From: Chrysoperla carnea
Lineage: Eukaryota > Arthropoda > Insecta > Neuroptera > Chrysopidae
NCBI RefSeq assembly: GCF_905475395.1
Contig: NC_058339.1
Location: 37,581,172 to 37,645,171, forward strand
DNA: 64,000 nt
Direction: 5' to 3'
The notes under the pieces were generated by a model. It did not search any database. It was not told where the DNA came from and saw only the letters and a program-made list of their open reading frames with translations. Position numbers and translations under genes: made by a program. This document shows positions 9,695-64,000 of the stretch, piece by piece. Positions within the stretch are counted from its first letter, which is position 1. Every line of letters starts with the position of its first letter.

Positions 9695-9830
9695 CAATTT
9701 TATTCGGTTGGCACGAGTTCAAATTCGCCTTCTGCTCTACTTCCGATCCAGTTCATTCCGGCTATGCAGAGGAGTTGCCAATCACTTCAGGAACTTCAAT
9801 ACCACGAGCTATTCGACTACCTATAATTTT
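9695..9830. other. GC-richer island of unknown origin
   Basis: Base composition is clearly unlike the surrounding intron. On the minus strand one frame is open for 28 codons (SDWQLLCIAGMNWIGS … VPTE, then stop). No splice sites or recognised domain. Could be a fragment of a mobile-element gene or another dispersed repeat. Confidence 0.25.
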
Positions 9831-11373: not shown

Positions 11374-13110
11374 CTGTAAAGAACAAAATTAATTTTTAAT
11401 ATTTTGTTAGACTTATTCTCAATTTGGTTAATGGCCTGAATGCGTACAAAAATTATAATAACCCAAATTTAATTATAATTAATTTATGAAAAATTAATTT
11501 TAATTTATGAATTTAGTACACTCGAAAAATTATTTACGCTTTGTTTAATTTTCACTGATTTTATTATACACAAAATTTAATAAAAATTATAATTAATGTT
11601 TTTTTTTTTACGTAATTTCACTGATTGTAGCTAGGAAGAAGTGGAATAAATTTTATTTTGATATTAATTTAAAATTATGACTCAATTTGTCTTAATATTC
11701 AAATAACTTGTAAAATACAGTGAAAACTGTTTATAGTGGCTTTACAATTAATGATATTGAGTGTTATATATGAATTGGTGTAGGCATTTTGGACGCAGGA
11801 ATTAATCAAAATAAAAAAAGTATTTCTAAAGAATTGCGGATATTGATTATCATGTAAAAACATAAAATTCAATCGAAGATATTGGGGGATATTTAGTAGT
11901 GCGATCAAAGTACTTATATTTGAAAAAATATACCCGTTCAAATGTTAAAAAACATGATTTTCGGCATTTTCCGACCTCAAATTTTGCAATATTTAATAAA
12001 ATAGATAGTTTTATGCAGAAAATAAATAGTATTTTCAGTACAAATAATTTCATAAATCAGAATAGTTAACTCAAGAAAAATCTCCTTCGTAAATGACTAG
12101 TTTCATTCATTCGTCATTTCTTATACACTACTTTAATTATAAAATTGTATGTATGCATATATAATGATATGGATTGCATTTATGACTTACATTGAAAATT
12201 TAATATTATTGTCTCACAAATTTAAATAAATATTTATGATAATTTACATTTGAAAAATAATATTTGTGCAATTTGATTTCTTATTTTCACAATTTTTAAT
12301 GCATTAAGTTTAATTAATTAGTGTTTTTCAAAAATTTTAATTTGACATTTTCTATAAGATTAACATGTAAAGAACTGCAAACTAGTCATAAAAGCCAATC
12401 CTCCTTTATCGCCAAAATTTTTCGCTGGAAGCGCTGGGTTCGATTTTATTGTCCTTACCATGACTACGCACACAACGTATAGCTGCTACAAAGATGTATT
12501 AAACAAAAACAAAACAAAATTTTTAGATATCAGAATACGAAAATCCTGTTGGGATTGAGATTTGAGGAGTGATTTTCAATTAATTGAAGATGTATGCGAA
12601 AATGTCACAATAAATACAGTTTTGCATCTAGAAATGGTTGTAATTTTTTAAAAAGAAACATTGTAAGACAAATGGAACACTGTTTTATGAAACAGTTTTA
12701 CTGTAATATTAAAACTAATTGACAAATTTTAATATACAACTTGATTAAATTATTTCCAGTTAATTTAAATCATAAAAAAAGAACACCTACAAAATATTTG
12801 CAATTAAAAAATTATTATTTAATTCAAAAATAATTCGTCATTTGTCATTTATTAAATAAGAATAATAGAACAAAAATTATAGGTTTCTTTATTAATATTA
12901 ATTTCATTTAGGAAATATATAGATATTTTATTTTTTCCATAATTTTTATTGTTTATTTTGGTAAAAAAAGTAAATTATATATTTGTTTTATACCCAAGAT
13001 AAAATGAAAGGCGATAGATAAAAAAAATTGGTGCATTCCTAATTTTTTTTAAAAAGAATTCGATCACTGCTAAAATCTTGTTCAATTACCAAATTTTTTT
13101 TTAACGCTTT
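11374..13110. other. Intron; mostly AT-rich, includes R3 repeat
   Basis: No exon seen. About 12050-12490 is an R3 repeat copy (listed). The rest is simple AT-rich sequence. Confidence 0.6.
12050..12490 (-). repeat. Dispersed repeat family R3, copy 1
   Basis: Inverted relative to the copies at about 27655-28165 and 43470-43795. Shared blocks include cctcctttatcgccaaaa, ttaatgcattaagtttaatt, aataatattaaattttcaat and atacactactttaattata. Non-coding; probably a non-autonomous mobile element or a segmental duplicate. Confidence 0.6.
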
Positions 13111-14390: not shown

Positions 14391-16520
14391 TATTAATATA
14401 AATAGCATCAAATAATAAATCAAATTTTGTATAATTTTTTAGTAGCCTTGAACTTCATCATATAAAAAAAAAATTGTATTAAAATCTAAAAAAATAAGTA
14501 CATCTATTGTTTGATTTTAAGTAGGTAAAAGTCAATACAATTATTTAAACAAAAAATAACTATTTAAAAAAAAATTATAAATACTTGTAATAATTATTTA
14601 ACAAAAAACGCGTGCGCAGCAGACCATCACTAAAATCATATTTCCCCGTCATTTTATGTTTCTTATTGTTGGAATTTTAATATAGATAAAAATATTGCCG
14701 TAAGCTTAGGTTAGTTCGGGGCGGGGGGTTGTGAAGATATGCTAAGTCTTAAAAATCACGAAAAAAAGATTTTGTGGTATAAAAAGGGGATATTGAGGTT
14801 TGAAAGTTGATTCTCTCAAAAGACTCCAAATTACTGAAATAAGTTTCCGTTTTCATATCATCAATTTGATTTGTATATAACACTACATACCGAAGGAGCC
14901 GTATACTAGAAGATTAACGTGTTCTGTGTGCTTATTACCCTCTGATTTTTACGAGCTATAGACCTGTATATTAGATATCCTCAAATCCTATAGCTCGTGT
15001 TCTAGGCCAAGATACGGATTTAGAACACGCCCCTCTCCGTTGATCTTTGATAAGGCGCATAAGTCTATATATTCGGGGGAAATATGATTAAAAACATATA
15101 AAAAAGAAGAATTAGTTAATTACCCTTAACCGATTATTAATGTTATAGTAATTCTTAATATTTTTATTATATATATATATTTTTTTTTGATATAATCACG
15201 TATAAATAAAAGTGAACTTTCTAATTACTATAATTTCTAAACTTCAGTGATTTTTTTCTAATAAATAATATTAGGGTTCTGTAAATCCTCACAAAATAAT
15301 AACTGCCAATAATTATACAAAAGTGCAATTATTCTTATTTATAATTTAAATATGTAGTACCTTTTTTAACGAGAGATCCCCCCAAAAGTATCCGATTGTT
15401 GAGTTTAATGGAGATACTGATAAAAAAAGAAAATAAGAACTTAACACAAAAACAAGTGTAACAAACAATTGACTGAGTTAATTGTTAAAACTCCATGTAT
15501 AATAAGTGTTGAATATCAGTGCTGCCATTTTTTTTAAATAAATTAGAAGAGTTTATAAAACCAACAAATTTTTTTGTTTTTCGAAAATTCCGAAAGTTTT
15601 CGAAAATATTTTCTAGAACTTATCTTCGTTTTTCGAGAATCTTTCACAATTACTATTTGAAGCTACATGCATATTTTCTATTCGCTATTTTTTATAGTTT
15701 TGGAGAAAATGGACACCAAAGTTATGTCCTAATTTGCGCACTCACGGGGACTTTTGGGCGAGTAGTAGTTTCTGAGATATCAACTAAAATCAAAAACGAA
15801 AAAACAAAACACCCAAAAACCTTGATTACCCTAAAATCTTAAATGATCCAAAGACTCGAAAATCCAGTTTATTTTGCGATTGAACGACTTGTTTCTAAAG
15901 TATCGACGAAGAAATTGCACAGGGATATTACCCTACGTAAATAAGTAGCTTAGTAAAGCTTTCTTGTACGGAATCCTTAAATATATAAAGAAAATTCATG
16001 CTTGGTTGAATACAATTTTATTAATATTTTGTAATACTTCGATTATTAATTAGAACGACGCAATTAATCATTAAAAACATTTCTTTTATACACGATTTCT
16101 TTAAAAGTGTTAAATCTTCGAAGAATTAAATGGAATATTTCCTAATGATAGAGATATAAAGTCAATTATTGTTAGTTGTTTCTATATTAACATAAAAAAA
16201 AACTATCTATCTACCAAATTTACCAATTTTTGGGAATCAATAAATCGAAAAAGTATCTATCGAAATGTAAAAGCCGCAGTATTTGAGGAAAAATCTCAAA
16301 AGTGAATTATATTAAACTTAAAATTACCTTACTTTACTAATTTTAGAATTAGCAGGACAAAAAACAAGAATGCGCTAAACGATATTTCAAAAGTAATGAA
16401 AGTTTGGTAACTACAGCTCGCAATTTTCCTGCAAAGTATGCAAACTACCGTAATTAACTTCATTAATGATAAATTAAAAAAAATACAAACTGTCTATTAA
16501 CCATAATTTACTTTCCAAAT
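14391..16520. other. AT-rich intron stretch
   Basis: No exon. A short fragment at about 15440-15510 (caattgactgagttaattgtt, then tgtataataagtgttga) matches one end of repeat family R2. A 107-codon plus-strand frame at 15519-15842 has low-complexity Phe/Lys content and no splice context, and is not called. Confidence 0.55.
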
Positions 16521-21344: not shown

Positions 21345-21915
21345 CAACCTAATTTTTGTTAACAGACAACAGACGTGCGTTAGTTATTACCCATAAAATA
21401 CAAAGAGAGGACAATAAATTGACAATATTTTTAAAAACAAGTGAAAACAAGCATTTGACTGAGTTAATTGTTGAAATACTATGTATAGACAGTGTTGATT
21501 ACTCTGTCACATTACACATACATACATGTCACACATTTATAACTGATATTCCCATATAATAATGTTTACGAAAAAATGTTTCAAACAAAAGTTGTTTACT
21601 TTTTTATAAGGAACATTTTTTACGTTTACACTTTTGTTCTATCTCTAACGGTTTACAAAATGAGTTCTACGGATCCAAGACCCAATTGACCTATGTTGCT
21701 CATTTACGAACTCAACTTCACTTTTTTCGTCCTAAGCACGCTATAAAAATTTCAACTTGATATCTCTTTTCGTTTTTGAATAATCGTGATGACAGATGGA
21801 CAGTCGACAGACAGACAGACAACCGGAAATGAACTAATAAGGTAGTGTTACAAACTTGGGACTAAATTTAGTATACTTTGGTATATTTCATATACATGGT
21901 ATAAAACGGGAATAT
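21345..21915 (-). repeat. Dispersed repeat family R2, near-full copy
   Basis: Inverted relative to the copy at 55785-56420. Shared blocks include ttgactgagttaattgttg, cggtttacaaaatgag, agacccaattgacctat, a (gaca)n/(cgtc)n tract, caaccggaaatg and the AT-palindromic end catatacatggtataaaac. Partial copies lie at 31225-31460 and 47620-47990, and a fragment near 15440. Non-coding; mobile origin is inferred. Confidence 0.65.
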
Positions 21916-31224: not shown

Positions 31225-31460
31225 GTCTATATTTTAGGACAAAATTTGACAGAATACACGTATTCTTGCAGGAATAAAAATAGGTAATGATTTTTGACAG
31301 GTGGGCAAACAACCGGAAATGGACTAATCAGGTGATATTATTTAAAACCAATAGATAAAAAAAATTTTGTTCGTAGCATCAATATTTTTAAGCGTTACAA
31401 ACTTGGGGCTAAACTTAGTATACCTTAATATATATTACATATATACAGGGTATAAAAATT
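31225..31460 (-). repeat. R2 dispersed repeat, 5'-truncated copy
   Basis: Shares caaccggaaatggactaatc, tcgtagcatcaatattttta, agcgttacaaacttgggg and the AT-palindromic end (atatatacagggtataaaaa) with the other R2 copies. Confidence 0.6.
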
Positions 31461-36409: not shown

Positions 36410-36830
36410 CATGCAACGTAAAATTTGGATTTTTTTTTTGAAACCCACTAATTTTGGGTCATTCTTTTCAGCTGCGATGTTAGTTTTTCCTAGCTAAAAT
36501 TATGACCCAAATATAGTAGGATTACATACCTGGTTTATCAAAATTGGATAAAATTTGGATGTGATAGAGCAAAATTAAATTTTTTGGATTTTGATGACGT
36601 CATAAAGTTAAAAAAATTCGATTTTTTTGATAACACAGGCAAATTTGATCCGATCTTATTGGATTTTTTTTTTGAAACCCACTAATTTTGGGTCATTCTT
36701 TTCAGCTGCGATGTCAGTTTTTCGCTAGCTATCACTTATGTGCTCAATTCCAGGACCAGGACTACACATTCTTGAAACCTATTAGAGCTAGAATAATTTT
36801 GATCGCAAATTTGAAAAGTATGTATATAAA
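36410..36830 (+). repeat. 316-bp satellite family, isolated 1.3-unit copy
   Basis: Shares gaaacccactaattttgggtc, gatgacgtcat (TGACGTCA at 36595-36602), gataacacaggcaaatttga and agctatcacttatgtgct with the array at 45.9-47.5 kb. The first unit carries an internal deletion. It may represent a seed or escaped copy of the satellite. Confidence 0.72.
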
Positions 36831-45896: not shown

Positions 45897-47480
45897 ATAA
45901 AGTCATAAAGTTAAAAAATTCGATAACAAAGGCAAATTTGATCCGATCTTATTGGAATTTTTTTTGAAACACACTTATTTTGGACCATTATTTTCAGCTG
46001 TGATGTCTATTTTTCGCTAGCTATCACTTATGTGCTTCATTCCGGGACCAAGTCTCCACATTCTTGAAATCTATTAGATCTAGGTTAATTTTGATTACAA
46101 ATTTAAAAATTATGACCCAAATTTAGAAGGATTCCATATTTGGTTTATCAAAATTGGGTAAAATTTGGGAAAGATAGAGCAAAATAAAATTTTTTGGATT
46201 TTGATGACGTCATGAAGTTAAAAAATTCAATTTTTTTGATAACAGAGGCATATTTGATCCGATTTTATTGGAATTTTTTTTGAAACCCACTAATTTTGGG
46301 TCGAACTTTTCAGCTTTGATATCAGTTGTTTGCTAGCTATCATTTATGGACTCAATTTCGGGACCAGGACTCCAAATTCTTGAAATCTATTATAGCTAGA
46401 TTAATTTTGACAATAAATTTGAAAAGTATGACCCAAATTTAGTAGAATTCCATACTTGGTTTATCAAAATTGGGTAAAATTTGGGAAAGATAGAGCAAAA
46501 TAAAATTTTTTGGATTTTGATGACGTCATGAAGTTAAAAAATTCAATTTTTTTGATAACAGAGGCATATTTGATCCGATTTTATTGGAATTTTTTTTGAA
46601 ACCCACTAATTTTGGGTCGAACTTTTCAGCTTTGATGTCAGTTTTTTGCTAGCTATCATTTATGGGCTCAATTTCGGGACCAGGACTCCAAATTTTTGAA
46701 ATCTATTATAGCTAGATTAATTTTGACAACAAATTTGAAAATTATGACCCAAATTTAGTAGAATTCCATACTTGGTTTATCAAAAGTGGGTAAAATTTGG
46801 GAAAGATAGAACAAAATAAAATTTTTTGGATTTTGATGACGTCATGAAGTTAAAAAATTTAATTTTTTTGATAACACTCACATATTTGATCCGATGTTAT
46901 TGAAATTTTTTTTCAAACCCACTAATTTTGGGTCGAACTTTTCAGCTTTGATGTCAGTTTTTTGCTAGCTATCATTTATGGGCTTAATTTCGGGACCAGG
47001 ACTCAAAATTCTTGAAATCTATTATAGCTATGTTAATTTTGACAACAAATTTGAAAAGTATGACCCAAATTTAGTAGGATTCCATACTTGGTTTATCAAA
47101 ATTGGGTAAAATTTGGGAAAGGTAGAGCAAAATTAAATTTTTTGGATTTTGATGACGTCATGAAGTGAAAAAAAATTTTTTTTTTTTTTGATAACAGAGG
47201 TATATTTGATCCGATTTTATTGGAATTTTTTTTGAACCCCACTAATTTTGGCTCGAACTTTTCAGCTTTGATGTCAGTTTTTTGCTATCTATCACTTATG
47301 TGCTTAATTTCGGGACGAGGGCTCCACATTCTTGAAATCTTTTATAGCTAGATTAATTTTGACAACAAATTTGAAAAGTATGACCCAAATTTAGTAGGAT
47401 TACATACTTGGTTTCTCAAAATTGGATAAAATTTGGATTTGATAGAGCAAAATTAGTAGGATTACATACTTGGTTTATCA
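45897..47480 (+). repeat. Satellite array, 316-bp period, five units
   Basis: The anchor gacgtcatg recurs at 46206, 46522, 46838 and 47154, exactly 316 bases apart. The first unit is partial at its left. Each unit runs through tttggattttgatgacgtca, ttgatccgatttta, gaaacccactaattttgggt, tttcgggaccaggactc and ccatacttggtttatcaaaa. Units differ by a few percent, and the left unit (45897-46190) is the most diverged. Every unit boundary I could check carries the palindrome TGACGTCA. No coding capacity. Confidence 0.92.
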
Positions 47481-47619
47481 AAATTGCCAATATGGTACTT
47501 TTTGATATCTTTTAATGAACAGCCAATATATATATATAATAATTACAATTTTAATCCAATTTTATGTGAATTACTGTGAATTATTTACTTTTTTTATTAT
47601 CAACAAAATTTCGATTTTG

Positions 47620-47990
47620 GAGGTTAATCAGTTCCTCATGCAAAATACTCCATTATCATTGAGTTACATTACAGTTTACAAAATGGATCCTACAGACCCA
47701 AGATGCAATTGACTTATTTTACACTTTCCGAACTCAAACTCACTTTTTACGTCTTGAGCACGCTATAAAAATTTCATCTCGATATCTCTTTTAGTTTTTG
47801 AGTTAGCGTGTAGACGGACGAACTGACAAACGGAAATCCAGTATGGCTATGGGAAATTAGATGATTCTATGAACACCTGTACCAAATTTTTGTTCATATC
47901 ATCAATATTTCTAAGCAATACAAACTTGAGACTAACATTAGTATAACTTCATATATATTTCATATATGTAATAGAGTATAAAAACGTTAA
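47620..47990 (-). repeat. R2 dispersed repeat, partial copy
   Basis: Directly abuts the satellite array. Shares acagtttacaaaatggatcc, caagatgcaattgactta, agcacgctataaaaatttca and the AT-palindromic end with R2. Confidence 0.6.
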
Positions 47991-48144
47991 AGGTTATAAT
48001 TTTAAATGTTTTACTGTTTTATCATCAACACCTTTTAATTTACATAAGTCATAAATAAATTGTACATATGTAACAAAACGATAAGGCTTCACCTGGTACA
48101 ACCAGTTACATTTATATTAAATGGCGATACTTTATATGGTAGGT

Positions 48145-49070
48145 AGAACCATAGTGATCCAAGCAATATTTTTCTTTAAATATAGACTTTGGCATATGGG
48201 CACGTAGAAAAAATAATTCTTCATAATTCTTCCATTTGGCAACATTTTTTTTTTTTTTCGAGAAATGAATTTGTTATTTTATTTAATTTTTTTATGTGTA
48301 ATAACGAATAGTGCTATTTCAAATAAAAATACTTAAATTTAATATTGTTTTTTCATTATTCTAATAATGGGTTATTATTTATTATTATGTATAAAGAGTT
48401 AATTTCCTACATATAAACTTAAAAACACATCTTCATTTTCTTACAAATACTCCAATCATCTTAGGGTTTCACCTCGGAATCTAACGAAATAAGCTGAATT
48501 TTTGTACAAACCATTCTTTTGAGAGTACAAACTTTGTTACTTTTTCATTTAATTATCGGTTAAATACTACCATCGATAATTAAGTCAAAAAACCGTATAA
48601 TAGACAGGGTCAATCGTGAATCCCAGTCTATTATGCTGTTTTTTTCCGTTAATTATACATAAACTACTTAATAATTATTTAATACCTTATATTTATAAAT
48701 AGATACCCAGCACTGAAGTACGTAAAGCTGAGCGCACCATATCCTGCGCCCTCTATTTCAAAAACGGTTCAACGTACAAAAAAAAGTTGCATACAAAATT
48801 TGTAGAAAATTTTATCTTCTACAACTGTCAATACGATTGAAGGCAAAAGAAACGAGATATTCACAAAAAACAGATTTTCGAGACTTTTGACCTTAAATAT
48901 CTAAGGACGCGCATGCGTGACCATATGTGACTTTTGTGACATTTATATTATCAAAAGAAAGGTTTGTACAAAAATTCAGCTTATTCCGTTCGATTCCAAG
49001 GTTGGCTACTTATTTTGATTAAGATGATCGGGTTAAAATATAAAACTGTTACTTGGATCACTATAGCTTT
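48145..49070. mobile_element. Large foldback element
   Basis: The outer inverted match is atagtgatccaag (about 48152) with its inverse (about 49047). The stronger inner match has aaataagctgaatttttgta and caaaccattctttt near 48490-48520 against the inverse near 48955-48990. The middle contains a hairpin with aatagac … gtctatt arms around 48600-48633. No coding sequence. Confidence 0.55.
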
Positions 49071-51115
49071 CCCATCTCCAAATAATACATAGTAAAAATC
49101 AAAGATTATTTATTATAACTCCACGTAACCTTTAAAATAAATACCGTGTGCATTAAGATCTAATACCATTAAGACGAAGCAAAATTCTCGCTAAAGAAAA
49201 TAATTTTTGGCAACGTTTGGCAAAAGTTCCTCCTTAACCAGCTGGTTCATTGGAGTTTAATTGCTGGTAATTTGGAGTTTAATCAAAGACAATAACACAT
49301 ACCTACGAGACCACGTATATGGCGTAATATTTGCCACAAGAAAAGATCCATTTTTAAAGACCGATAAAAAATTTCACTCAGTGCATTGTGATTAAAGAGA
49401 ATTGAAAAAAACACACTCGCACCAGGAGTCCATTGTGTTTCATTATACGTTCTTAAGTGAGTTCGTGAATGAACTTTTGAAAAAAGAATAAAAGTCACTA
49501 TGCGATTTTCTCTTCAGACGAATACTACACCAGATATGCGTTAATACCGAATGATTAAGAAAAGCACTCGTTTGCTAAATTTTAACGAACGGTTTGTACC
49601 TTGAGTACTATAGTCTTGTGACACTTAGTACTGCAAAAAAGGTGATAAATAAATATTCTTGATGTTTTCAAACCAATTTGCAACATAAAATAGTATAAGC
49701 AAGGAAATGTGTATGAGGTTGGTATAGAAAAAAATTAAACATGCAAACATTTATAGTGAAACTCTACTAGTACAACACGGAGCAAGTAATGAGCGATTTT
49801 GAAAATTCTGTTAAAAATGATTTTATTAAATTTTCTAAATAATTTGTTTATCCCCTTAAGATGTTAATAGAAAAAAATAGACCTGGAAAAAATTATACCG
49901 CAAATTTTATAGACCCGGTAATTACGAGTTGGTTAGGTTGAGTTTGTCGACTATACATGACTGGGTTTGGGGTCTGAACTTTTAAGCCCTTGCGTTCAAA
50001 AATGGTACACAATTACAGAATTTTTTTTGGCCTATTTTTTCTAAATCCCGTTAAGATACATCAAAACGTGCGTTTTTTTCTTCACAAGATAACTCACCAC
50101 CAAAAGTTAAAACAGTGAAAGGACGAATATGAAATAAATTCCAGAAATAACTTGTTCAACTAGAAGATGGTCTACGCCTGAACATTCATCATCTTATAAG
50201 AAGTTTTTAATATTCCATTTTCGTTACATGAGTTAATTTTTTTTAAAGATTTTTTACGGACATTTTATTCTCTTGGTAGAATCTAGAACGAAATCGATAT
50301 CAATTTAAAGATTGATTCAAATCGATTCAAAATGTCGAAATGATTTGCGAGAAACTCTTTCCACATGGTCGCATTGCAAACCGTGGATAGATAGGACTAA
50401 TCCATTTTGAACCAAATATTTCCCATTCATAAAATTAATGATTTTTGAAACAACCATGAGACAACATCTCTTCTCTGAATGAAGGTAGGTAAACCAGTCA
50501 TTTAATATCAAGTAGTAGATAGGTACATCGCACCTTATCTGTCCGTGTTCCACCATAAAGTCAAGTCGAAAATCATCATAAAGCCTCCAGGCAATTATTT
50601 CAATTCTGAAGGCTTACAGCTTTCTCCTAATTATCACGCATCTTAACTGTAAGCATGAGATCGAATCTTGATGTAAAAAGGCATATAGAACGAACGACTG
50701 GTAAAAACAATTTATTTTATGTATTTTAAGATGAAGGTTCTTTTATAACCTTTTCAAAATCGCTCACTATAATGCTCCACTCTTCATTTAAATTAAAAAA
50801 TAAGCATTTTAATGTAATATCCTTCCTATGTCCTAGACATTGAACCTCGATAGTACCTGAGCATATTCTACATCGTTGATGTATATAATATTGTAATGCG
50901 CAGAATATTTAAATCGATACAAAAAAAAAAACTATTTTCAAGGTTAGATGTTATAATTTATACACCTGTAGAGAAAAGAAACAATTCATAGTAGAGTTAT
51001 AAAATTCATAGTTCCTATAGTTATATATTCATTTAGAAGTTTCGCCAACAAAAATTCTATGAGAGAGAATATGACATAGGTTGGCGAAAATTCATAATTT
51101 TTCTTTAGTTTTTAA
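49071..51115. other. Spacer without recognised genes
   Basis: Minus-strand frames at 49283-49498 and 50317-50556 are open for 71 and 79 codons. Neither shows splice signals or a domain I recognise. Confidence 0.4.
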
Positions 51116-51119
51116 ACGC

Positions 51120-51360
51120 GTCAACCCTCAGTAGCTCATTTGGTTAAAGCGTTACCATTTCCGTTCGCGGTATGTTTAGGGTAGCGGGTTCGATGTTATA
51201 TGCATGAAGGAAGTGAACTCAACCTCTGAAAATAATCGAGGAGCTAATAAATGAAATTATCAGCGGAAGGTAAAACACAAATATGGTATCACAATTGGCT
51301 CTATAGCTTAAGTGTGTCCTTCGTGGGCAGACAATAAAATCTAACGTAGCCTAACTGTAG
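51120..51360 (+). mobile_element. tRNA-derived SINE, family S2
   Basis: The head has a very good A box (tagctcatttggttaaagc) and a B box (agcgggttcgatg) about 60 bases apart, as in a tRNA gene. It lacks a closing acceptor stem and continues into a unique body ending gtgggcagacaataaaatct. Single copy in the window. Confidence 0.58.
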
Positions 51361-53765
51361 TTTTAAGGTGTCGAATCCTACAAACGAAAATCTAAAATTT
51401 GTTTACTAAGTAACAAAGTTGGATAATTGATTCCAAGCAATAGTTTTCCAAATATTTAAGAAGAATGGTGGTATTTAGTCCTAAAAATGTGTCAGGACTG
51501 AATATCACTTATATCACTTATTGGCTTCTTAAGTAACAAACTATCAAAGTTGATTCTAATAAAGTTCGACGAAATAAGACAAAAATTGAAAATACAATTT
51601 TCAATATTTCGTTTAGTTTTTTATATATCAGTGCCCTTATTTCTAAAATGGTATTTATTCAAATAAAAATTGGTTCAGTCTTGGAAATAACTTTCGAAAA
51701 TTCGATGGTCACATATAATTTAATCATAAATAAACAAATTTCCTTGGTTGTAGATAGATTTTTGCGTTCCCTTTTTATTTTGAGAGATGATATCCCTCAC
51801 TGACTCGTCTAAATTTTAATATAATTAGCAGATAATGAAGTTAATATATCTACAAAGTACATTATTTTAAGTTAAATTGTCAATTAACGTCAAATAATTA
51901 TTCGAATGTTAATTAAATTAGAATACAATATAAAGGTCACGAACTAATTATTAGTTCAACATATTATAGGTATCTTATAATTAACAGTTAGTTATTTGTT
52001 CAGTTATTAATGTAATACTGTTAGTTAGGCTAAGCAAAATATTGAAAAAATGCTATCCTCTAGATCAGCTTTGAACACATTCAGAGATGAGCAATGCTTT
52101 TAAAAAGTCGAAAAAAGCTGGAATCTCACGAAACTGAACGGATTTTCTTGAATTGTAGCTAAGGATCATTGAAACTAAATCAGAATAAGGAAATTCGATA
52201 ATTTTTTTAAATTAAATATTTGATTCCAACCGAGAGATGCGGGAAAATTGGTATGTCCTATAGACATTAATTTAGTCCCAATAGGTACTTCTAAGATACT
52301 ATCTGAACTTACATAAAAATTTCCAACGCCCTATCTCAATTTGGGCGGGGCTCTTTAGAATTATAGCTAAGAATACTCTCAATCAAGTCATCTATCAATA
52401 ACCAATCTAAATCAAAATCGGTTCATTTATTTGAGAGCTACGATGCCAAAGACAGACTCATAAATACACACATTAAACACATAATACCTCCCTTTGGTTG
52501 AGTCTATGGTTCACGCACGTTTAAAATTACGTGAGTTTTCTCATATTTTAAAATCTTCCTGACTTGGTGCAAGCGAAAGTGTAGTTTTTTAGACTTTTAA
52601 TTGGAAAGGAATGGAAAGTCGTAGTATAACCTAGGATATACAACGGAAAATATCTTACTTCTGGAAAAATACCTCATTTCTCTGGAAAAATTATAGTTTA
52701 ATTAATTTAAATATATTTAATAATAAACGTAGAAATAATCGCATTTTTAGTTTTTGTCAATCTCAGTTATGAATCAAAACTGACTTTAAATGAATCTAAT
52801 TTGGCTCTGAAGATTAAGGTCAAGATTCAAATTCACTATAAGATTTTTTTGTTAACAATATTTGAAACATTTTTTTATCCAAAATTTATTTCACGAGTTA
52901 CTTGTATTGCCAAGTTAAAAAATTAACCCCAAAGTAAGTATGTTTTTTTACCCACGGACCATATATCTGAATATGTTTCAGTCTATACTTATGAAGAAAT
53001 GGTGATTTTGTCAGGATGAGTATCCCTCTATGTTAAACAATTTTTATTTGTAATATAAATTATAAATTCATTATCCACAAAAAATTTACACCGGATACTT
53101 AAAATAATATGTTACAGTGTTAGTAGTTATACGAGATATATGGCCAGCGGATATTTATTTATATCCGCTCGGATATAAGATATTATTTAGCTTAAAATGA
53201 TGACTAAACTGCGGATATTAGAAGAAATGTATGTTAATTAAATTATGTCATAATTTTTTTTTGTATTTCTTAATTAATTATAACAGTCATTAGAGCATTT
53301 TTATTAAATACTTTAGCGCCTTTAATTTTAAATCTAACTTCAGGTCCATATTCAACATTATAAAATCATTCCAAGCAGGTTAAATGGATATGGATTCCAA
53401 TGCACAAATTACAGCAACATTATCCCTCCTTCTATGTTGCGTTTTTCTTCCATCCGATTACACGAATTTAGCTTTATTTTTGTGATGAAACGAAAAACGA
53501 TTTGGCTTAATCAGAGGTGGAGTATTCATAAGGCAAATTAGGCACGTGTATACAGGCGCGAAGTAAAAAAGGGCACAGGGCACGCACGTCGAAGTTTTTA
53601 AACAAACAAAATTAAATGTGTAACTAAGTGTGCAAAAAATTACAACCCGTAGATATTGAACAGCAAGCTTTGGAACCCAATAGAAAAAGAGTATGAAAAG
53701 TACACATATAGAAGATACGGAAGAGGAAGCTCACAGCAGACGATTCTGAGGAAAATATTACTTCT
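51361..53765. other. AT-rich spacer with an R1 copy
   Basis: An R1 copy lies at about 52300-52500 (-) (aaatcaaaatcggttcattt, gagagctacgatgccaaag). No exon is called. Confidence 0.45.
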
Positions 53766-54085
53766 TCATTCGTGATAGTATATCTAGTAATTATAGATAG
53801 ACTTTTGGTTAAACTTCAAAAGAGGCGAGAATTGTACAGCATTTTTTACAAAAATTTTCATTTTTAAGCAATTTGACCATAATTTGAACAAAGAAGAAGT
53901 TTATAATAGAGCAAGTAATACAATCGTTACAAGCGATGCATTTTGGTGATTTAGAAAGGTGCTTTTTTGATGAATGTATCCACTCACATTCTTATTTAAC
54001 AACGATAGCTCCACCCGGAGAACTGCGTCGAACAACAAACGCAATTTTACAGGTTCTAAGAAGTAAAGAACTAAAAACGGGTCTT
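53765..54085 (+). pseudogene. Degenerate ZMYM1/hAT-like transposase-derived fragment
   Basis: The reading starts around VIVYLVIIDRLLVKLQKRRE, continues after a frameshift with FLSNLTII, and after a stop with SLQAMHFGDLERCFFDEC and IHSHSYL. This order of helices and the LVIID … FLSNL … FDE(L)xH pattern resembles the C-terminal part of zinc-finger MYM-type 1-like proteins derived from hAT transposases. At least one frameshift and one in-frame stop are present. Assigned by memory of the family only. Confidence 0.42.
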
Positions 54086-55780
54086 TATTGATTACGGTCG
54101 GGGGCTAATTTTTTTAAATGCCTCATTTTTTAAAATGCAATATCAATAATATATCGCGAAATCCATTATTTTTCTTAAATGTACAAACCGTACCCCTAAA
54201 ACTTTTAGAATACAATTACCCTAATAAGACTCTGGAAACGACTACAGTCGTGTGATTACGGTCAATCGATGAAGACGGTGCGTCGTTTTCTTAACTTCCT
54301 GTATGGCGACTTTTGATCGAACATTATAGAGATGCATGAATGCTGCCAGGGTTAGCTAAAAGTTGAAAAACTTCTCATTTGATAAAACCGATATTTAGAG
54401 TTAGAAAATAATATAAAGTATTTTAATATTGATTCTCTAATTTTTACCCTATTTCATTCCAATCTGGTATTAATTTGACCTATTTCAAATGGTATATATA
54501 TCTTAAAATAGGTCAAACTATCAGATTCTGCTTCAACTAAATTGTATTTCAAATCTAATAATTTTACTGCAATCTAATAATAATAAATCGAATCACAAAG
54601 GTAGGTATTTCTATTTGATATAGAAAAAACTTTATTATTCAGGTTGAAGAGCTATCCAATATATATTTGATAACTTTATACAGGGTGCCACTAAAGTTGG
54701 CTACAATTTTCCCAACAACTTTCTGCCTAATACTAATATTTATAGAACAAATAATGTTATTTTATAGTCTAGAAATTTATTGGCCAGATCGTGGATGATA
54801 ATCTTAAGCATTTCCGTCAATTATAATCCACAAAAATAGTTTAAAAATTTTCTTTTAGGTTTATAATTGGCCATGAACATTTTTATGTGATTAAAATAAA
54901 TCGATTATTTTGTATAATAGGGTTTCCTTGTTTGAATAATAAAATCATACACCTGCATTTTCAATCCACTAAAATTATTATTATCAAAAATAATTGAATA
55001 TGCATTTTTAATCATATTTTCTACGAAAATATAGACTTATGCACTATATGGAAAGTTAACGAGAGGAAGGGTGTGGGTTGAATGAAAACCTTTAGGAGAT
55101 AACTTATCGAGCTTTGGGGACGTTTGATCACCCTTTAGTTCAAATGAGCTGAAAAACTATTTAGGGTTGTTTATCATAGTCGAAACAATATTATAGAAGT
55201 AATTTCGATATATTTGGGATCGGTACCCTATTGAGCTAGAGAATTGAACATTTGTGTATAGGTCGGTTGTGTAGGTCAAGTATGTAGTTTTTGGAGGTAT
55301 CCACTTCTGAGTCCCCTTTAATCCTTTTTATGTCAATATATAACATTTTTTTGCGAACTTGTGGACAGCTTTTGAAGAGAGTTAACTTATTGTATATGAA
55401 TAAAGTTTGACGATGTTCAGTGCCGTTCAGTGCCGTTTGGCGGTGTTAATTTTCCAACATTCCCGCTCATTCTTTTATATCAAAATATGGTTTTCTCTTT
55501 TTGTTTGTCATCTTATGAGGGGGAAATATGATCTCAGTGATAAAGTTCTTCGGCTTATGACAGAGAGCAGACCTCAATATGTTTTTTATAAGGTTTCATT
55601 TATTTTTTTATTGGTAATGAATTATATAATTGAATTGTTTTTTAATCGATAAATTATGATATTGGTATTACTTTTGCAGTAACTATGACTAACTAAAAAA
55701 ATAATAAGAAATTTCTCTGAATGAAATATTTTAAGCAAAATTGGCTCCAAAAAAATGCGTCCTGGTAGATTTTTAATTAA
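54086..55780. other. Spacer without recognised genes
   Basis: No exon, tandem repeat or mobile-element end that I can define. An 81-codon plus-strand frame at 55407-55652 is not supported. Confidence 0.4.
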
Positions 55781-55784
55781 TTAA

Positions 55785-56420
55785 ATATTTTTATACCATG
55801 TATATATGAAATATACATAGTATATTAAGTTTCGTCCCAAGTTTGTAACGCTTAAAAATATTGATGCTACGAAAAAAATTTTGGTATAGGTGTTCATAGA
55901 ATCACCTAATTAATCCATTTTCGGTTGTCCGTCCGTCCGTCCGCCCGTCTGTGGACACGATAACTCAAAAACGAAAAAAGATATCGATTTGAAATTTTTA
56001 CAGCGTACTCAGGACGTAAAAAGTGAGGTCAAGTTCGTAAATGAGCATCATAGGTCAATTGGGTCTTGGGTCCGTAGGACCCATCTTGTAAACCGTTAGA
56101 GATAGAACAAAAGTTTAAATGTAAAAAATGTTACTTATAGATAAATAAAAAACTTTTGTTTGAAACATTTTTTTGTAAACATCACTGTTTACCCACGAGG
56201 GCGTTAAATAGGTGCAAATTTTATAGTATGTATTACTTAATATAGGAATATCAGTTGTGTGTGTGTTGTGTATTTAAAAGTGAATATCTTTTGTTATTTA
56301 CGTGACGTCAACACTTTCTATACGATTGCGCATCAACACTGTCTATACATGGTATTTCAACAATTAACTCAGTCAATTGTTTATGGTGTCTTTAAAATTG
56401 CATACCATTTTTTGTTTTTT
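55785..56420 (+). repeat. R2 dispersed repeat, best copy
   Basis: Starts with the palindrome-rich ataccatgtatatatgaaat and continues through gtttgtaacgcttaaaaata, a (gtcc)n tract, gataactcaaaaacgaaaaa, ggtcaattgggtcttgggtc, the aaacttttgtttgaaacatt block and caattaactcagtcaattg. About 630 bp, non-coding. It is the reference for the inverted copies. Confidence 0.68.
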
Positions 56421-57479
56421 TAGGTTAATGATTAAATTTGTATTAAAGTGAATCTGTTTTTAAGATTTATGTTAATTATTTAATATTGCGTGAAGTATTT
56501 ACTTTTTTAATTTATAAATTTATAACGTTTTATATAATTTATTTTAATTTATATACACTAATTAACTGTATACATTGATCGAATCGAAGTATTTTTAAAT
56601 ACCCACTAATTAATGTTTATTATTTAATTAATTCGTAGTGTAGGTATGTAATCTGGAGAAAGTCATCCCTTTTAAGGAAGTGCACAAATAATTGGTTTTC
56701 TTTCTAATTGTATCAAGAAAAAAAAAATTGAATGAAGGAAAAGTTTTTAACGAACTGTGTATTTAAAATAAGAAAAATACATTGGAATATGAATAAATAA
56801 AAATACATAAATAATACATTAATATCGATTTAGAAAATATTTCAAACGATTTGGGATTTTCCTTGACCTAAGAGAGTCCGGTTCCTAAAATGGCCCATAG
56901 TAATATCAAGTTGAGATTCGTGGTTGAAATTATTTGTTCTTTATTTTCAACTTTGATCATGAAAATACGAAATTTTTCGTTATTTGTCTTGGTTATCGAA
57001 ATATCGAAAGCTAAATAATTAAACAAAATTTTCAATTTTCGATATTTTAAAAATTACTCCGCATATCGAAAAATTTTAATGATAATCATTATGTTAATCA
57101 TTTACAGTGGAAAAAAAAGCATTAATCATGTGAAATCTGTAACAAAAACTTTTCGTATAAGAGATTAACTACAACATAAATGTAGTAAAAAAACCGAGGA
57201 AAAACCTGATATTTGTAATAGAACATTTTATGATAGAAGCCAAAAATTCTTAATAAATAGGGTCTATGAATAGTTATTACTACACTGTATCCGAATGACT
57301 TAATGTGTTTCGGTTTAGAAGCATGTGTTTTCGGTTTATACTTATTCGGTTTTCTCACTCAAATCTCGGATAAGTATAAACTTTAATTTTTTTTTAATGA
57401 ATTTATTAATATGATTTTTTGCAAATCAATTAAATTAATTTGAATACGCATTTATTTTGGAATAAGTTAAATTTATTTA
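56421..57479. other. AT-rich spacer with an R4 fragment
   Basis: About 56900-57085 matches part of R4 (cttggttatcgaaatatcg, aattaaacaaaattttcaat). Nothing else is recognised. Confidence 0.45.
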
Positions 57480-57850
57480 TTCATTAGGTTAATATAATTT
57501 TCTCACTGATATTGCCTGTTTAAATTGTATGTATATATGTCGGGTCATATGGCGATGTGGTGAGCGAGTCCGACTGTTAGTACTAAGATCGTAGGTTCGA
57601 AACCCACTAAGGTACAAAATTTTTTTTTCCCTACGTTATTAATTTAAGTTTGTGTAACAATCCCACAGGTGTTTTAGTCACTCAAAGTTTTTCATTAGGT
57701 TTGTACAGCTTTATCACCGATAATGTCTCTTGATATTGTTTCATCATATAAGAGGTGTCGCAGCTCGGTGTTAAGCGGGTGCGACTCGTAGATCGAAGGT
57801 CTATGGTTCAAAGCTCGGGCAAATAAAAATTGTAAATTTTTTCTCTACAT
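57480..57850 (+). mobile_element. Two tRNA-derived SINE heads in tandem, family S3
   Basis: Two related blocks each begin tcattaggt, then a ttntcacngat-like stretch, then a tRNA-like segment. The first has gatgtggtgagcgagtccga and B box gtaggttcgaaaccca (about 57590). The second has gtgtcgcagctcggtgttaa and ctatggttcaaagctc (about 57805). A third block is at 59850-59990. B boxes and spacing fit a tRNA ancestor. No acceptor stem closes, so these are not tRNA genes. Confidence 0.6.
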
Positions 57851-58499
57851 TTCATGTTCTGATTTATTCAAATTAATTTCATTAATTTAAATGCGTGTTA
57901 AATTTCCGCGCTTTTTTCGGGTGTGGTCAATCAAAATTATTCATTAGGTCAGTAGTGTTTCATCGTTCATAGTGGACAGTTGGTTACATTTGTGCTTTGT
58001 GTTTCACCTTCATTTGACTTCCAAACGTCAAATTTCATTTTCGAATTTGTTTCTGAGTAAGTTTTTGTTTTAATTTACATTTTTCTTATTCTTTTTTTGT
58101 ACATTGTAAAGTTCTATATTATATTTAATTTGTTTCACATTTTGTCCAAATACTTTTTTACACAAAACTTTTAATATTAATTTAAAAAAATTATGTTTGA
58201 ATCATTTGTTTATTTTTTCCAATTGAAATCACATTCTAGAATTAGTTGTTTTATTATTAGTGATTGACTACAAGTATTTTTATTTGATTTCAAAATTTTT
58301 CGAGCTTGTGTTTATTCCCAAGAGATTCAATCTCATTTATACAAAATTTATTTATAATAAATATAACAAAATGAATATGTACTATGGTTCGATAAAATTT
58401 TTTGACGTTAGTGTTATTTTAGATGTAGAATTTACTAATAAACACACAGTTTTAATATTAATAATTATAATTTTTATTTAAAGACGTTCATTCATCAAC

Positions 58500-59560
58500 C
58501 TGTTTTGCTATGTGCGTTTATATGGAAACAGTATTTAAATTTGAAATAATTTTGAAATTTTATTAAAATTTTTAATAATTACTAACTGATAAAAGTTTCA
58601 AGTATAGTTATCGATATAATTTTTGAGAAATATCGATTTATATTTTCCATTTAAACCTATGTTAAAGATTAATTTTTGTCACTTTTTGAATTTAAAATTT
58701 AACATTAATGACGTTTCGATTAATTTATATAATTGTATATTTTTTCTTTCTTAAATCATTCAAAATCATTTAAACTTTTTTATCATCATAATTATTTTTA
58801 TTTGTCTACTTACAAGTCTCATGAATGTACGTCCTTAAATGAATAACTAAATAACTCTACAATCACTTGAACAATATTAATGAAATGTTTTAATATTATT
58901 GTTTTAATCAACAACTCCGTTACTAAATATCGAAAAAAATTCTATCAAAATAATAAATAAAACTAAATTTGTATTCAAATGATTTCAACACTCCGCTCAA
59001 TTCAAACAAAACAGATTCCTATGGACTTAGCAAATTTGTGAAATTTTTGATTTGATAAACCTTTGGTACAAATATCAGCCAGTTCATTTTTTGTAGGTAT
59101 ATAATCAATTTTTTTTAAATTCTGATCGAATGAAATGTTATTTAAGTTCGCGTACATGCGTGAACCTGTTTTGCTACGTGCGTTCATAGGGAAACAGTAT
59201 GTAAATTTTAAAGAATTTTAAATTAATAGAAATTTTTTTGATATTCTATTAAAAGTTTAAATAATTATTACCTGGTAAAAGCTTGTAAAAAAAAGTATTA
59301 ATATAATTTTAGAAAAATATCGTATTTATATTTTCCATTTAGTCCCATGTTAAATCTTACTTTTAATCAATTTTTTAAACTTAAAATTCAATGAAAATAA
59401 TTCGATAACAGGTTATTTTTCTTGTCTTAAATCATAGAAAATCATTTAAACTATCGCATTACCATATTGTTTTTTATTTCTCTACTATTATCGTTGACGC
59501 ATGTACGCCCTTCAATTATTTGGAAATAATATATTTTGAAAATCTAAAAAACAGAATATT
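58500..59560 (+). repeat. Direct duplication of about 400 bp
   Basis: The segment from about 58500 (cctgttttgctatgtgcgtt) to about 58840 recurs from about 59165 (cctgttttgctacgtgcgtt) to about 59510. Shared blocks include ggaaacagtat, tttatattttccattta and aaatcatttaaact. The right copy begins inside a copia remnant, so the duplicated unit probably derives from that element. Confidence 0.6.
59002..59187 (-). pseudogene. Ty1/copia reverse transcriptase-RNase H fragment (minus strand)
   Basis: The open frame of 61 codons ends with KKIDYIPTKNELADICTKGL and a few residues more. IPTxxQ/ELADIxTKxL is the diagnostic C-terminal motif of copia Pol (end of RNase H). Upstream residues (ARSKTGSR … NISFDQN) match the RSKHIDxRYHFIRD region with substitutions. 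Only this end survives; the rest of Pol, Gag and LTRs are not visible. Confidence 0.75.
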
Positions 59561-59607
59561 GTTGCATTAGCTAGCTGCGGTTTGTAAAATGAATGTTTTA
59601 ATATGAT

Positions 59608-59791
59608 CGTTAAACCAGTAATTTTTGAGGATAATCAATCAAGTATTCAATAAGTTAAGAATTAGGAAAGTAAAAGAAGTAAATATAGTGGCATTAAATA
59701 CCATTTCATTCGATCAGAATTAAAAAAAGATAATTTAAAAATTGAACATATACCTACAGAGAATCAATTGGCTGATATTTGTACATACACT
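59608..59791 (+). pseudogene. Ty1/copia RNase H fragment (plus strand)
   Basis: Reads PVIFEDNQSSIQ, stop, then a second stop, then KRSKYSGIKYHFIRSELKK and IEHIPTENQLADICT. FEDNQS, RSKxxxIKYHFIR and IPTxxQLADI are in the order expected for copia RNase H. Two in-frame stops make it non-functional. It lies opposite in orientation to 59002-59187. Confidence 0.78.
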
Positions 59792-59849
59792 AATAATAAA
59801 ATTATTTTTAATTATTTTAATTATTTATCACTAAAATATATTTATTCAT

Positions 59850-59990
59850 TAGGTTGGTCCAGTTTTATCACCGATTATGGCCGTTTAAATTGTAACAAGC
59901 ATCAAGTCGTGTGGCAGAGAGTATAGCGAGTCCTACTCCTCTTACACAGGTATGGAGTTCAAAATCCAGGTAAGTAAAATTTTTATTTTT
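59850..59990 (+). mobile_element. SINE family S3, third copy
   Basis: Same tcattaggttggtccagttttatcaccgat lead and tRNA-like block (gtcgtgtggcagagagtata, ggagttcaaaatccagg) as 57480-57850. The following sequence at about 60075-60150 also matches 57980-58065, showing that a larger unit was copied. Confidence 0.55.
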
Positions 59991-60189
59991 ATTTCCTAAA
60001 TCTCATGTGATAATTTATTCTTAGTAATATAATTAATTTGAGTGTGTGTTTTACTATTCACTATGAATAGCTTATTTATTTGACATTTATCTATTCCCTT
60101 CATTTGAATTCCAAATCTTAAATTTCATTTTCGGGTTTGTTTCTAAGTAAGTTTATGTTAATAAAGGTAAATTAAGATTAAATGAGCCA

Positions 60190-63100
60190 TCTTTAATTGT
60201 TTATGCATAAATATTTAAATTTATTTTACTCTAAATATCAGTTCATTAATTTAAATTTGTAAAATCGGTCTGCCCTATATCCTGAGAAGCGACGTTGACT
60301 AACTAAGGTTAGTATGATGTTTCTCAGGAAAAACTCGTTCGATTTGTTGCATGTGTTATAACACTATGAGAAATTGTGTAGTCAAAAATCAATTTTTTCT
60401 CGTTATGTCTGTCTGAAGCTAAGCGCCTCGATAGGGGATTGTATCAACTCATGATGACGTTGAGACGGAACTTGCAACGTGCGCAGTCATCACTTAAAGT
60501 GAGTTAGGTATATCTAGACAGATAATGTACGGAAAAAATGATCTTGATTACATGGATTTTTCGCCTGTGTTATAGCCTGTGATATTTTGGATTGGTTTCA
60601 TTCTGGGGTAAGTCTACTTATAACTGGGTTGAAAAATTGCCTAATTTTTCTTTTTAAATTTTTTTAAATTTCTTTTTTAAATATATTATTTTAAATTTGT
60701 AAATTCGGTCTGCCCTAAATTCTGAGAAGCGACGTTGACTAACTAAGGTTAGTATGATGTTTCTCAGGAAAAACTCGTTCGATTTGTTGCATGTGTTATA
60801 ACACTATGAGAAATTGTGTAGTCAAAAATCAATTTTTTCTCGTTATGTCTGTCTATAAGCCAAGCGCCTCGATAGGGGATTGTATCAACTCATGATGACG
60901 TTGAGACGGAACTTGCAACGTGCGCAGTCATCACTTAAAGTGAGTTAGGTATATCTAGACAGATAATGTACGGAAAAAATGATCTTGATTACATGGATTT
61001 TTCGCCTGTGTTATAGCCTGTGATATTTTGGATTGGTTTCATTCTGGGGTAAGTCTACTTATAACTAGGTTGATATGGTTAGTTCAAATGGACCTTCAGA
61101 AATATTTATGCATAAAGGTTATTGTAAATTAAGCAATTTTTATTTATTCCTTTTCTTTTTAAAATAATTGAATTTTTTCCAGAGATATTTATGCTTTTTC
61201 ATCTCCGACATTCTCATTTGTATAATTCTGTGTTTGTGACTTGTAAAATTCATATCCTATCCTAGAATTATCTTTTTTTATCATATCCTATCCTAGAACT
61301 TTCTTTAATTGTTTATGCATAAATATTATTGCAAATTAAGCAATTTTTAACTTTTATGCCGAGAGATATTTTTGGTTTTTTTCAATTTATTTTACTCTAA
61401 ATATCAGTTCATTAATTTAAATTTGTAAAATCGGTCTGCCCTATATCCTGAGAAGCGACGTTGACTAACTAAGGTTAGTATGATGTTTCTCAGGAAAAAC
61501 TCGTTCGATTTGTTGCATGTGTTATAACACTATGAGAAATTGTGTAGTCAAAAATCAATTTTTTCTCGTTATGTCTGTCTGAAGCTAAGCGCCTCGATAG
61601 GGGATTGTATCAACTCATGATGACGTTGAGACGGAACTTGCAACGTGCGCAGTCATCACTTAAAGTGAGTTAGGTATATCTAGACAGATAATGTACGGAA
61701 AAAATGATCTTGATTACATGGATTTTTCGCCTGTGTTATAGCCTGTGATATTTTGGATTGGTTTCATTCTGGGGTAAGTCTACTTATAACTGGGTTGAAA
61801 AATTGCCTAATTTTTCTTTTTAAATTTTTTTAAATTTCTTTTTTAAATATATTATTTTAAATTTGTAAATTCGGTCTGCCCTAAATTCTGAGAAGCGACG
61901 TTGACTAACTAAGGTTAGTATGATGTTTCTCAGGAAAAACTCGTTCGATTTGTTGCATGTGTTATAACACTATGAGAAATTGTGTAGTCAAAAATCAATT
62001 TTTTCTCGTTATGTCTGTCTATAAGCCAAGCGCCTCGATAGGGGATTGTATCAACTCATGATGACGTTGAGACGGAACTTGCAACGTGCGCAGTCATCAC
62101 TTAAAGTGAGTTAGGTATATCTAGACAGATAATGTACGGAAAAAATGATCTTGATTACATGGATTTTTCGCCTGTGTTATAGCCTGTGATATTTTGGATT
62201 GGTTTCATTCTGGGGTAAGTCTACTTATAACTAGGTTGATATGGTTAGTTCAAATGGACCTTCAGAAATATTTATGCATAAAGGTTATTGTAAATTAAGC
62301 AATTTTTATTTATTCCTTTTCTTTTTAAAATAATTGAATTTTTTCCAGAGATATTTATGCTTTTTCATCTCCGACATTCTCATTTGTATAATTCTGTGTT
62401 TGTGACTTGTAAAATTCATATCCTATCCTAGAATTATCTTTTTTTATCATATCCTATCCTAGAACTTTCTTTAATTGTTTATGCATAAATATTATTGCAA
62501 ATTAAGCAATTTTTAACTTTTATGCCCAGAGATATTTTTGGTTTTTTTCAATTTATTTTACTCTAAATATCAGTTCATTAATTTAAATTTGTAAAATCGG
62601 TCTGCCCTATATCCTGAGAAGCGACGTTGACTAACTAAGGTTAGTATGATGTTTCTCAGGAAAAACTCGTTCGATTTGTTGCATGTGTTATAACACTATG
62701 AGAAATTGTGTAGTCAAAAATCAATTTTTTCTCGTTATGTCTGTCTGAAGCTAAGCGCCTCGATAGGGGATTGTATCAACTCATGATGACGTTGAGACGG
62801 AACTTGCAACGTGCGCAGTCATCACTTAAAGTAAGTTAGGTATATCTAGACAGATAATGTACGGAAAAAATGATCTTGATTACATGGATTTTTCGCCTGT
62901 GTTATAGCCTGTGATATTTTGGATTGGTTTCATTCTGGGGTAAGTCTACTTATAACTGGGTTGAAAAATTGCCTAATTTTTCTTTTTAAATTTTTTTAAT
63001 TTTCTTTTTTAAATATATTATTTTAAATTTGTAAATTCGGTCTGCCCTAAATTCTGAGAAGCGACGTTGACTAACTAAGGTTAGTATGATGTTTCTCAGG

Positions 63101-64000
63101 AAAAACTCGTTCGATTTGTTGCATGTGTTATAACACTATGAGAAATTGTGTAGTCAAAAATCAATTTTTTCTCGTTATGTCTGTCTATAAGCCAAGCGCC
63201 TCGATAGGGGATTGTATCAACTCATGATGACGTTGAGACGGAACTTGCAACGTGCGCAGTCATCACTTAAAGTGAGTTAGGTATATCTAGACAGATAATG
63301 TACGGAAAAAATGATCTTGATTACATGGATTTTTCGCCTGTGTTATAGCCTGTGATATTTTGGATTGGTTTCATTCTGGGGTAAGTCTACTTATAACTAG
63401 GTTGATATGGTTAGTTCAAATGGACCTTCAGAAATATTTATGCATAAAGGTTATTGTAAATTAAGCAATTTTTATTTATTCCTTTTCTTTTTAAAATAAT
63501 TGAATTTTTTCCAGAGATATTTATGCTTTTTCATCTCCGACATTCTCATTTGTATAATTCTGTGTTTGTGACTTGTAAAATTCATATCCTATCCTAGAAT
63601 TATCTTTTTTTATCATATCCTATCCTAGAACTTTCTTTAATTGTTTATGCATAAATATTATTGCAAATTAAGCAATTTTTAACTTTTATGTCCAGAGATA
63701 TTTTTGGTTTTTTTCAATTTATTTTACTCTAAATATCAGTTCATTAATTTAAATTTGTAAAATCGGTCTGCCCTATATCCTGAGAAGCGACGTTGACTAA
63801 CTAAGGTTAGTATGATGTTTCTCAGGAAAAACTCGTTCGATTTGTTGCATGTGTTATAACACTATGAGAAATTGTGTAGTCAAAAATCAATTTTTTCTCG
63901 TTATGTCTGTCTGAAGCTAAGCGCCTCGATAGGGGATTGTATCAACTCATGATGACGTTGAGACGGAACTTGCAACGTGCGCAGTCATCACTTAAAGTGA
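60190..64000 (+). repeat. Higher-order tandem array, exact 1166-bp period
   Basis: The anchor cggtctgccctatatcc falls at 60266, 61432, 62598 and 63764, always 1166 apart. The anchor cggtctgccctaaattc falls at 60706, 61872 and 63038, also 1166 apart. Each unit is core A (about 366 bp), an AT-rich spacer (about 74 bp), core B (about 367 bp) and a longer spacer (about 359 bp, with ctatcctagaa duplicated). Full units differ by only a few bases, so amplification is recent. The first unit lacks about 70 bases of the preceding long spacer, marking the array edge at about 60190. The right end leaves the window. No open reading frame of note. Confidence 0.96.
60266..60631 (+). repeat. Core A of the 1166-bp unit (structured)
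   Basis: First of the seven core copies; the others start at 60706, 61432, 61872, 62598, 63038 and 63764. Visible inverted repeats: tcctgagaa (60280-60288) with ttctcagga (60321-60329), enclosing actaac-taag-gttagt; the 12-base palindrome gtgttataacac (60353-60364); gatgac (60453-60458) with gtcatc (60486-60491), enclosing gttg/caac; and tctgtct with agacaga about 115 bases apart. In core B the first arm has C to T, which would still pair as a U-G wobble in RNA. No known RNA family is recognised. Structured satellite or a repeated non-coding RNA gene are both open. Confidence 0.6.

Follow-up and report, generated by a model that had tools for sequence, protein, structure and literature searches.

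A long dimeric tandem repeat in a large, very probably Helentron-like non-autonomous element of Chrysoperla carnea

Non-autonomous Helentrons (HINEs) are the closest described systems for the repeat array considered here. In the available part of their description, HINEs have subterminal inverted repeats (subTIRs) at both ends, set in by 2-4 nt on the 5' side and by 38-60 bp on the 3' side, a palindrome 8-35 bp from the 3' end, a T-rich target and, in some copies, tandem repeats (PMC4067079). The central repeats of DINE-TR1 in Drosophila have been expanded to satellites, according to the accessible text on that element (PMC9957191), and in the Pacific oyster short satellite-like arrays are dispersed by riding inside Cg_HINE elements, as the available portion of their description states (PMC7492417).

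The array reported here very probably forms the tandem-repeat block at the centre of a large Helentron-like, non-autonomous element (HINE, Helitron2-type rolling-circle) of the lacewing Chrysoperla carnea. Elements of this kind are already known, and the long dimeric repeat is what is unusual. Compared by the described features, as far as the accessible text gives them, the lacewing element resembles HINEs in its 5' subTIR, the distance of its 3' subTIR, its 3' palindrome, its T-rich target, the lack of coding capacity and the tandem repeats known from some copies, and it differs in that the lacewing copy is 12 kb long, most of which is extra middle DNA (PMC4067079). With DINE-TR1 it shares the character of a non-autonomous Helentron with expandable central tandem repeats; compared by description, in the part of the source available, the DINE-TR1 repeats measure ~150 bp, whereas the lacewing unit is a 1,166-bp dimer with two ~370-bp cores (PMC9957191). 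With Cg_HINE it shares the dispersal of short arrays inside the element and flanking modules that carry a subTIR, an inverted repeat (IR) and a palindrome; the Cg_HINE monomers are mostly 140-180 bp and the accessible text contains no 'dimer', whereas the lacewing unit is dimeric (PMC7492417). Within the open-licence literature, no paper joining Helitron and Chrysoperla was found, and among the matches listed there was by title no satellite-DNA study of Chrysoperla or of Neuroptera (lacewings).

The 1,166-bp unit and its dispersal

The window, that is, the whole stretch of 64,000 nucleotides that was analysed, corresponds to C3:37581172-37645171 of the assembly. It contains two adjacent genes, or parts of genes, in which CAP domains are repeated, at 364-2705 and 5371-11375 (- strand), the second of which is LOC123295218; the CAP-domain protein encoded at 7221-8411 (- strand) has 99% identity over 97% of its length to the C. 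carnea LOC123295218 protein. The features of the array are as follows (window coordinates).

60190..64000, continuing to ~65,864, + strand: central tandem-repeat block with a 1,166-bp unit, 10 cores
60262..60634, + strand: core A, first copy
60704..61075, + strand: core B, first copy
61200..61301, + strand: linker of ~102 bp between units, missing from both one-unit copies read (L009, L010)

The first-pass annotation had described a young higher-order repeat with an exact 1,166-bp period and with whole units differing by a few bases, and both the period and the small differences hold up in self-comparison, in which 6 of 2,621 positions differ at an offset of 1,166, 5 of 1,455 at 2,332 and 1 of 289 at 3,498. 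The span that it gave, 60190..64000, has to be lengthened at the right, where the array runs on past the end of the window for a total of 10 cores. Core copies in the window array are spaced alternately by 440 and 726 bp, and the first unit is shortened just past 60215. Only short open frames occur within the unit, the longest of 49 aa, and protein coding was rejected on that basis. Neither the unit nor a core piece matched anything in collections of phage, viral and prokaryotic sequences.

A search of the whole 559.5-Mb assembly (the published C. carnea assembly is put at 560 Mb in the available part of PMC10116181), with one unit as the query, returned 133 first-look candidates, and the 38 that were scored lie at as many different places on C1-C5. 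On the right the match ended at query position 1010-1016 in all 38, and on the left it began at 1113 in at least 30; two of the places (L009, L010) contain a single 1,065-bp block. The arrays at the 20 loci that were read (L009-L028) comprise 2-10 cores at steps of 440-442 and 726-729 bp, with extra B-type steps in some arrays and with the ~102-bp linker between units. Immediately upstream, an identical stretch of 40 bases (0-1 differences; window bases 60150-60189) is present at 18 of 18 readable loci, a count made without L017 and L022, which were cut elsewhere, and the first ~45-50 bases downstream are nearly identical in 20 of 20. In addition, a marker adjoining the array had 124 matches in the genome at up to 2 mismatches and the core piece had 704 at up to 3, with none for the reversed-pattern control in either case. 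The first 100 of the 704 core matches are all perfect, all lie on C1 and form 21 clusters; among the matches listed, compared by eye, a perfect marker stands beside at least 18 of these clusters.

These counts bear directly on the idea of a free-standing young satellite, a higher-order repeat that adjoins transposons by chance. Its exact period, the few differences among units and the local expansion of the window copy would all suit such a satellite, yet the neighbouring DNA travels with the array at every one of the 20 loci read, at least 18 of the 21 C1 core clusters among the matches listed have the perfect marker alongside, and the arrays read hold 2-10 cores only, so that the idea is refuted for those 20 arrays and is most improbable in general. 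Treating the array as a stand-alone feature was thus mistaken, as array and neighbouring DNA recur together at many places in the genome, and the framing as a young satellite gives way to a repeat that sits inside a dispersed mobile element. The first-pass annotation had named a clear match to a known transposon family, with dispersed single copies, as the observation that would speak against it; what was found is a family of transposons, dispersed in copies of which the smallest hold a single unit, and identified through its structure, not through similarity to a named entry in a database.

The carrier element and its ends

The carrier was read in long stretches at 13 loci and in the window, 14 in all. 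The tandem block lies within an element that is dispersed and has constant ends, and both of these ends are those of a short (~600 bp), very abundant HINE. In the window copy the carrier extends from 55,792 to 67,799, a length of 12,008 bp; oyster HINEs are much shorter than 12 kb. Outside the block, the following parts of the element lie in the window.

55792..64000, + strand: in-window part of the HINE-like element, which continues to 67,799 (L042:3799)
55792..55807, + strand: 5' end with the 5' subTIR (TATACCATGTATATAT), the first base uncertain by a few T
55811..55822, + strand: inverted repeat adjoining the 5' subTIR, with the subTIR match listed at 55812
56338..56384, + strand: internal 3'-end remnant with a subTIR match (56344) and the palindrome, the last ~13 nt missing
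56385..60189, + strand: non-coding middle DNA common to dispersed copies, putatively captured

The element begins with TATACCATGTATAT... and finishes with ...CAATTGTTTGTTTTCACTTG. The 3' end is present in 13 of the 14 loci, L029 being the one without it, and the 5' end (TATACCATGTATATATG...) is visible in 7 of the 14, in L035 by eye and in L041 from the third base. The stretches fetched for L031, L032, L036 and L038 begin inside the element, and the remaining loci, L029, L037 and L040, have shared DNA only from a point further inside. Beyond the 5' end the flanks are unlike from copy to copy and are T-rich, as is described for the insertion sites of HINEs, and directly after the 3' end comes TT in 12 of 13 copies and GT in L032. 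The complement of the 5' subTIR, at one mismatch or fewer, occurs exactly three times in the 12,008-bp element, at 55812, 56344 and 67750. The first of these is the inverted repeat just downstream of the 5' subTIR near the 5' end at 55792, an arrangement that HINEs show as well, and the last is the 3' subTIR, which has 1 mismatch over 11 and lies 39 nt from the terminus, within the 38-60 bp given for HINEs. A palindrome at 67765-67787, whose stem is 7 bp long, stops 12 nt short of the 3' terminus, inside the HINE range of 8-35 bp; on its own its folding does not surpass that of shuffled sequences (z -0.26). The longest stop-to-stop ORF measures 98 aa in 47,500-60,200 and 86 aa in L042, so that both stretches stay below 100 aa and agree with the absence of coding capacity in HINEs, while central tandem repeats, an optional feature of HINEs, are present. 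Within the middle DNA of the element there is also an inverted pair of fragments, 59066-59113 and 59737-59784, 88% complementary, and the frames over them resemble pieces of a Copia RNase H.

Two other classes of element were considered for the carrier. Canonical Helitrons have the form TC ... CTRR and insert between A and T, and this class was rejected on the 3' end, CACTTG, and the TT that follows it in 12 of 13 copies. A retrotransposon, with a variable 5' start and a fixed 3' end, was considered for L029, L037 and L040 and set aside on account of the common 5' end and the subTIR pair; the 5' boundary does vary, in that these three short copies start inside the element.

The 5' end of the element has 3,093 matches in the genome at one mismatch or fewer and none for the control, which makes the family of the short ~600-bp form a very abundant one. 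In the window, further copies or fragments of the same HINE family, all on the - strand, lie at 15451-15512, 21436-21906 and 31309-31457, and a 5'-part fragment at 47671-47967 (- strand) adjoins a separate 316-bp tandem array (45922-47485; 4.8 copies, 91% matches) to which pieces at 36432-36822 are related. Tandem HINE structures were also seen elsewhere, namely three 5' ends at 54-bp spacing at G000:C1:12731895-12732052 and two short HINEs head to tail at L048:326-1538.

Homogenisation and folding of the two cores

Cores A and B agree at 364 positions over lengths of 373 and 372, and the near-identity first noticed between them is thereby confirmed. The two spacers had been described as entirely different, and this is upheld against dinucleotide shuffles: in five comparisons with 500 shuffles each, the likeness of the A and B flanks was no greater than that of shuffled sequences, the proportion of shuffles that scored as good being 0.58, 0.15 and 0.11 for the upstream flank and 0.76 and 0.22 for the downstream flank, though in BLAST the alignment of A with B is extended across an A+T-rich flank to ~420 bp.

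With A or B position assigned from the spacing, 90 cores (42 A and 48 B) were available from 20 loci. Over the middle of the core (columns 21-365), A and B differ by 0.59% within the same locus and by 1.58% between different loci, and none of 2,000 re-pairings of the loci gave a difference as low as that observed. Differences tied to position sit near the core edges: at four edge columns, A is unlike B in 95% of the within-locus and 93% of the between-locus comparisons, and since these differences hold both within and between loci, the core was doubled before it spread. In mid-core, A and B of the window are distinguished by GAAGCT vs ATAAGCC, a difference that does not follow position at other loci, and sub-family variants are common to the A and B cores of the same loci. 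A and B are therefore homogenised by conversion or exchange, in concerted evolution; as the loci fall into sub-families, the test reveals homogenisation along lineages of the element and not an ongoing process at each locus. Two origins were proposed at first, capture of the core twice with later amplification of the block, or constancy of the core through gene conversion or function. A doubling that preceded the spread is supported, as is conversion in the wider form of gene conversion or unequal exchange. Whole units differ on average by 1.1% within a locus (32 pairs) and by 1.8% between loci (829 pairs). The middle three units of the window array are 2-3 positions apart and its first and last units diverge more, so that the window copy seems to have grown to five units by a recent local expansion.

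The remaining alternative, that function keeps the core constant, is not borne out by its variation. With one unit per locus sampled from 20 loci, between-locus diversity (pi) is 0.016 in core A, 0.012 in core B and 0.014 in the short A-B spacer, and 0.029 and 0.021 in the left and right outer parts of the unit, the left value being inflated by the deleted first unit of the window. The core thus varies about as much as the short spacer, and relative to the outer parts its variation is slowed mildly at most.

One functional reading is a cluster of structured non-coding RNA genes, in which each core would encode an RNA of ~345 nt on the + strand, with a closing helix, a 5' hairpin and a long rod, and the doubled core would be kept by selection. 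Such a cluster would accord with the predicted folds, since core A on the + strand folds at -124.4 kcal/mol (z -7.27) and core B at z -7.15, against -2.74 for the reverse (- strand) core and -0.40 for the long spacer, as well as with a core diversity somewhat below that of the outer parts. When the arms of the core are aligned symmetrically, 68 positions are Watson-Crick pairs, 16 are G.T and 9 are others, and the mismatches comprise 16 G.T and 3 A.C, a figure uncorrected for base composition; however, G and T abound on the + strand of the core, which weakens the G.T excess as a sign of pairing. The changes themselves also go against an RNA gene. Among 60 distinct cores of the 90, derived states occur 47 times at 268 paired positions and 16 times at 104 unpaired positions (p 0.76), and 23 of the 47 changes at paired positions keep the pair where 23.1 are expected, so that base pairing is retained no more than expected and selection on the structure of a core RNA is not supported. 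The A and B flanks are unlike beyond the core, and Rfam gave no match at gathering scores over the whole window, in line with the first impression that no known RNA family was recognisable; a permissive Rfam scan of 60100-61500 produced three weak matches (E 0.95-1.4), none credible, and ideas of a telomerase RNA, an snRNA or a ribozyme were dropped for want of Rfam support. An RNA gene cluster is accordingly very improbable.

Tandem hairpins in Drosophila feed silencing. A second reading of the fold is that transcripts with tandem hairpins would feed Dicer or Piwi, as a source of hpRNAs or piRNAs, with silencing of a target gene or of the element family as the outcome. The long rod predicted in each core would be consistent with this, Drosophila hpRNA loci that yield endo-siRNAs have been described in the available part of the literature, and DINE-TR1 is linked to piRNA expression in the title of a paper; against it, the arms are only partly complementary, given the pairs counted above, and are not being preserved among the 60 distinct cores, and we regard a silencing source as very unlikely. 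The strong fold of the core looks like an inherited property of the DNA that is not now maintained, which RNA pathways could still read.

It is conceivable, at rather long odds, that the core is a captured host hairpin-RNA gene, copied to numerous sites by the rolling-circle element and kept uniform through gene conversion. If this were true, a transposon family would be dispersing tandem sources of long-hairpin RNA through the lacewing genome, and these would serve self-silencing or the silencing of host genes.

Proposed origin of the element and its significance

The remnant at 56338-56384 is the end of the short ~600-bp HINE on the left side of the element; this 3' end lacks its last ~13 bases and is followed by ~11.4 kb of other DNA and then by a complete 3' end, which is the pattern expected of a missed termination signal. 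Missed termination and capture have been described for Helitrons, as the accessible text states (PMC4067079). In a short HINE the terminal ~13 nt of the 3' end may thus have been lost, after which replication would have run through into the adjoining DNA until the next 3' end stopped the transfer, and ~11 kb of extra DNA, the repeat included, would have been carried along. The carrier occurs in two sub-forms that have the left ~519 bp, the middle (L030 coordinates 1,284-5,846) and the 3' end in common and differ in their junctions, the second sub-form, with the other junctions, being represented by L033, L034, L035, L039 and L041; a single read-through is therefore too simple, and more than one event is needed. 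L037 (G000:C4:60752900-60762890) has no HINE part; its homology to the element begins at most a few bases from the point where the short-HINE remnant meets the middle DNA, and it is possibly a donor-like locus.

The element would have been copied in trans by an autonomous Helentron, and the number of units may have been altered after insertion through unequal exchange or slippage, with the likeness of A and B presumably maintained by gene conversion or short exchanges. No host function is needed on this account. Helitron Rep proteins are encoded in the genome, with 64 Helitron_like_N matches, some in open frames of 1,100-2,462 aa. In the flanks of two Rep loci of the 64 (L044/L045 and L046-L049), no autonomous element with these ends was found, and the HINE-type ends at both are parts of separate short HINEs. 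No empty site was found in the assembly for the window copy, the sole copy tried, whose joined flanks matched their own two places only.

Two further observations concern the Rep-domain regions. At G000:C3:3767553-3809834, seven equal-scoring Helitron Rep-domain matches stand mostly ~5.8 kb apart, which looks like a tandem Helitron array. In L047 (G000:C7:195000-199000), motif matches recur each 755 bp downstream of a 2,462-aa frame with a Rep domain, and this recurrence suggests another long repeat.

The locus carries a caution, namely that a tandem array seen in one window needs its genome-wide context. A higher-order repeat that looks perfect can sit inside a rolling-circle-type transposon that has spread through the genome, and be homogenised there. 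The lacewing family is, moreover, a natural case for measuring the homogenisation of two duplicated cores, the edges of which record the older doubling.
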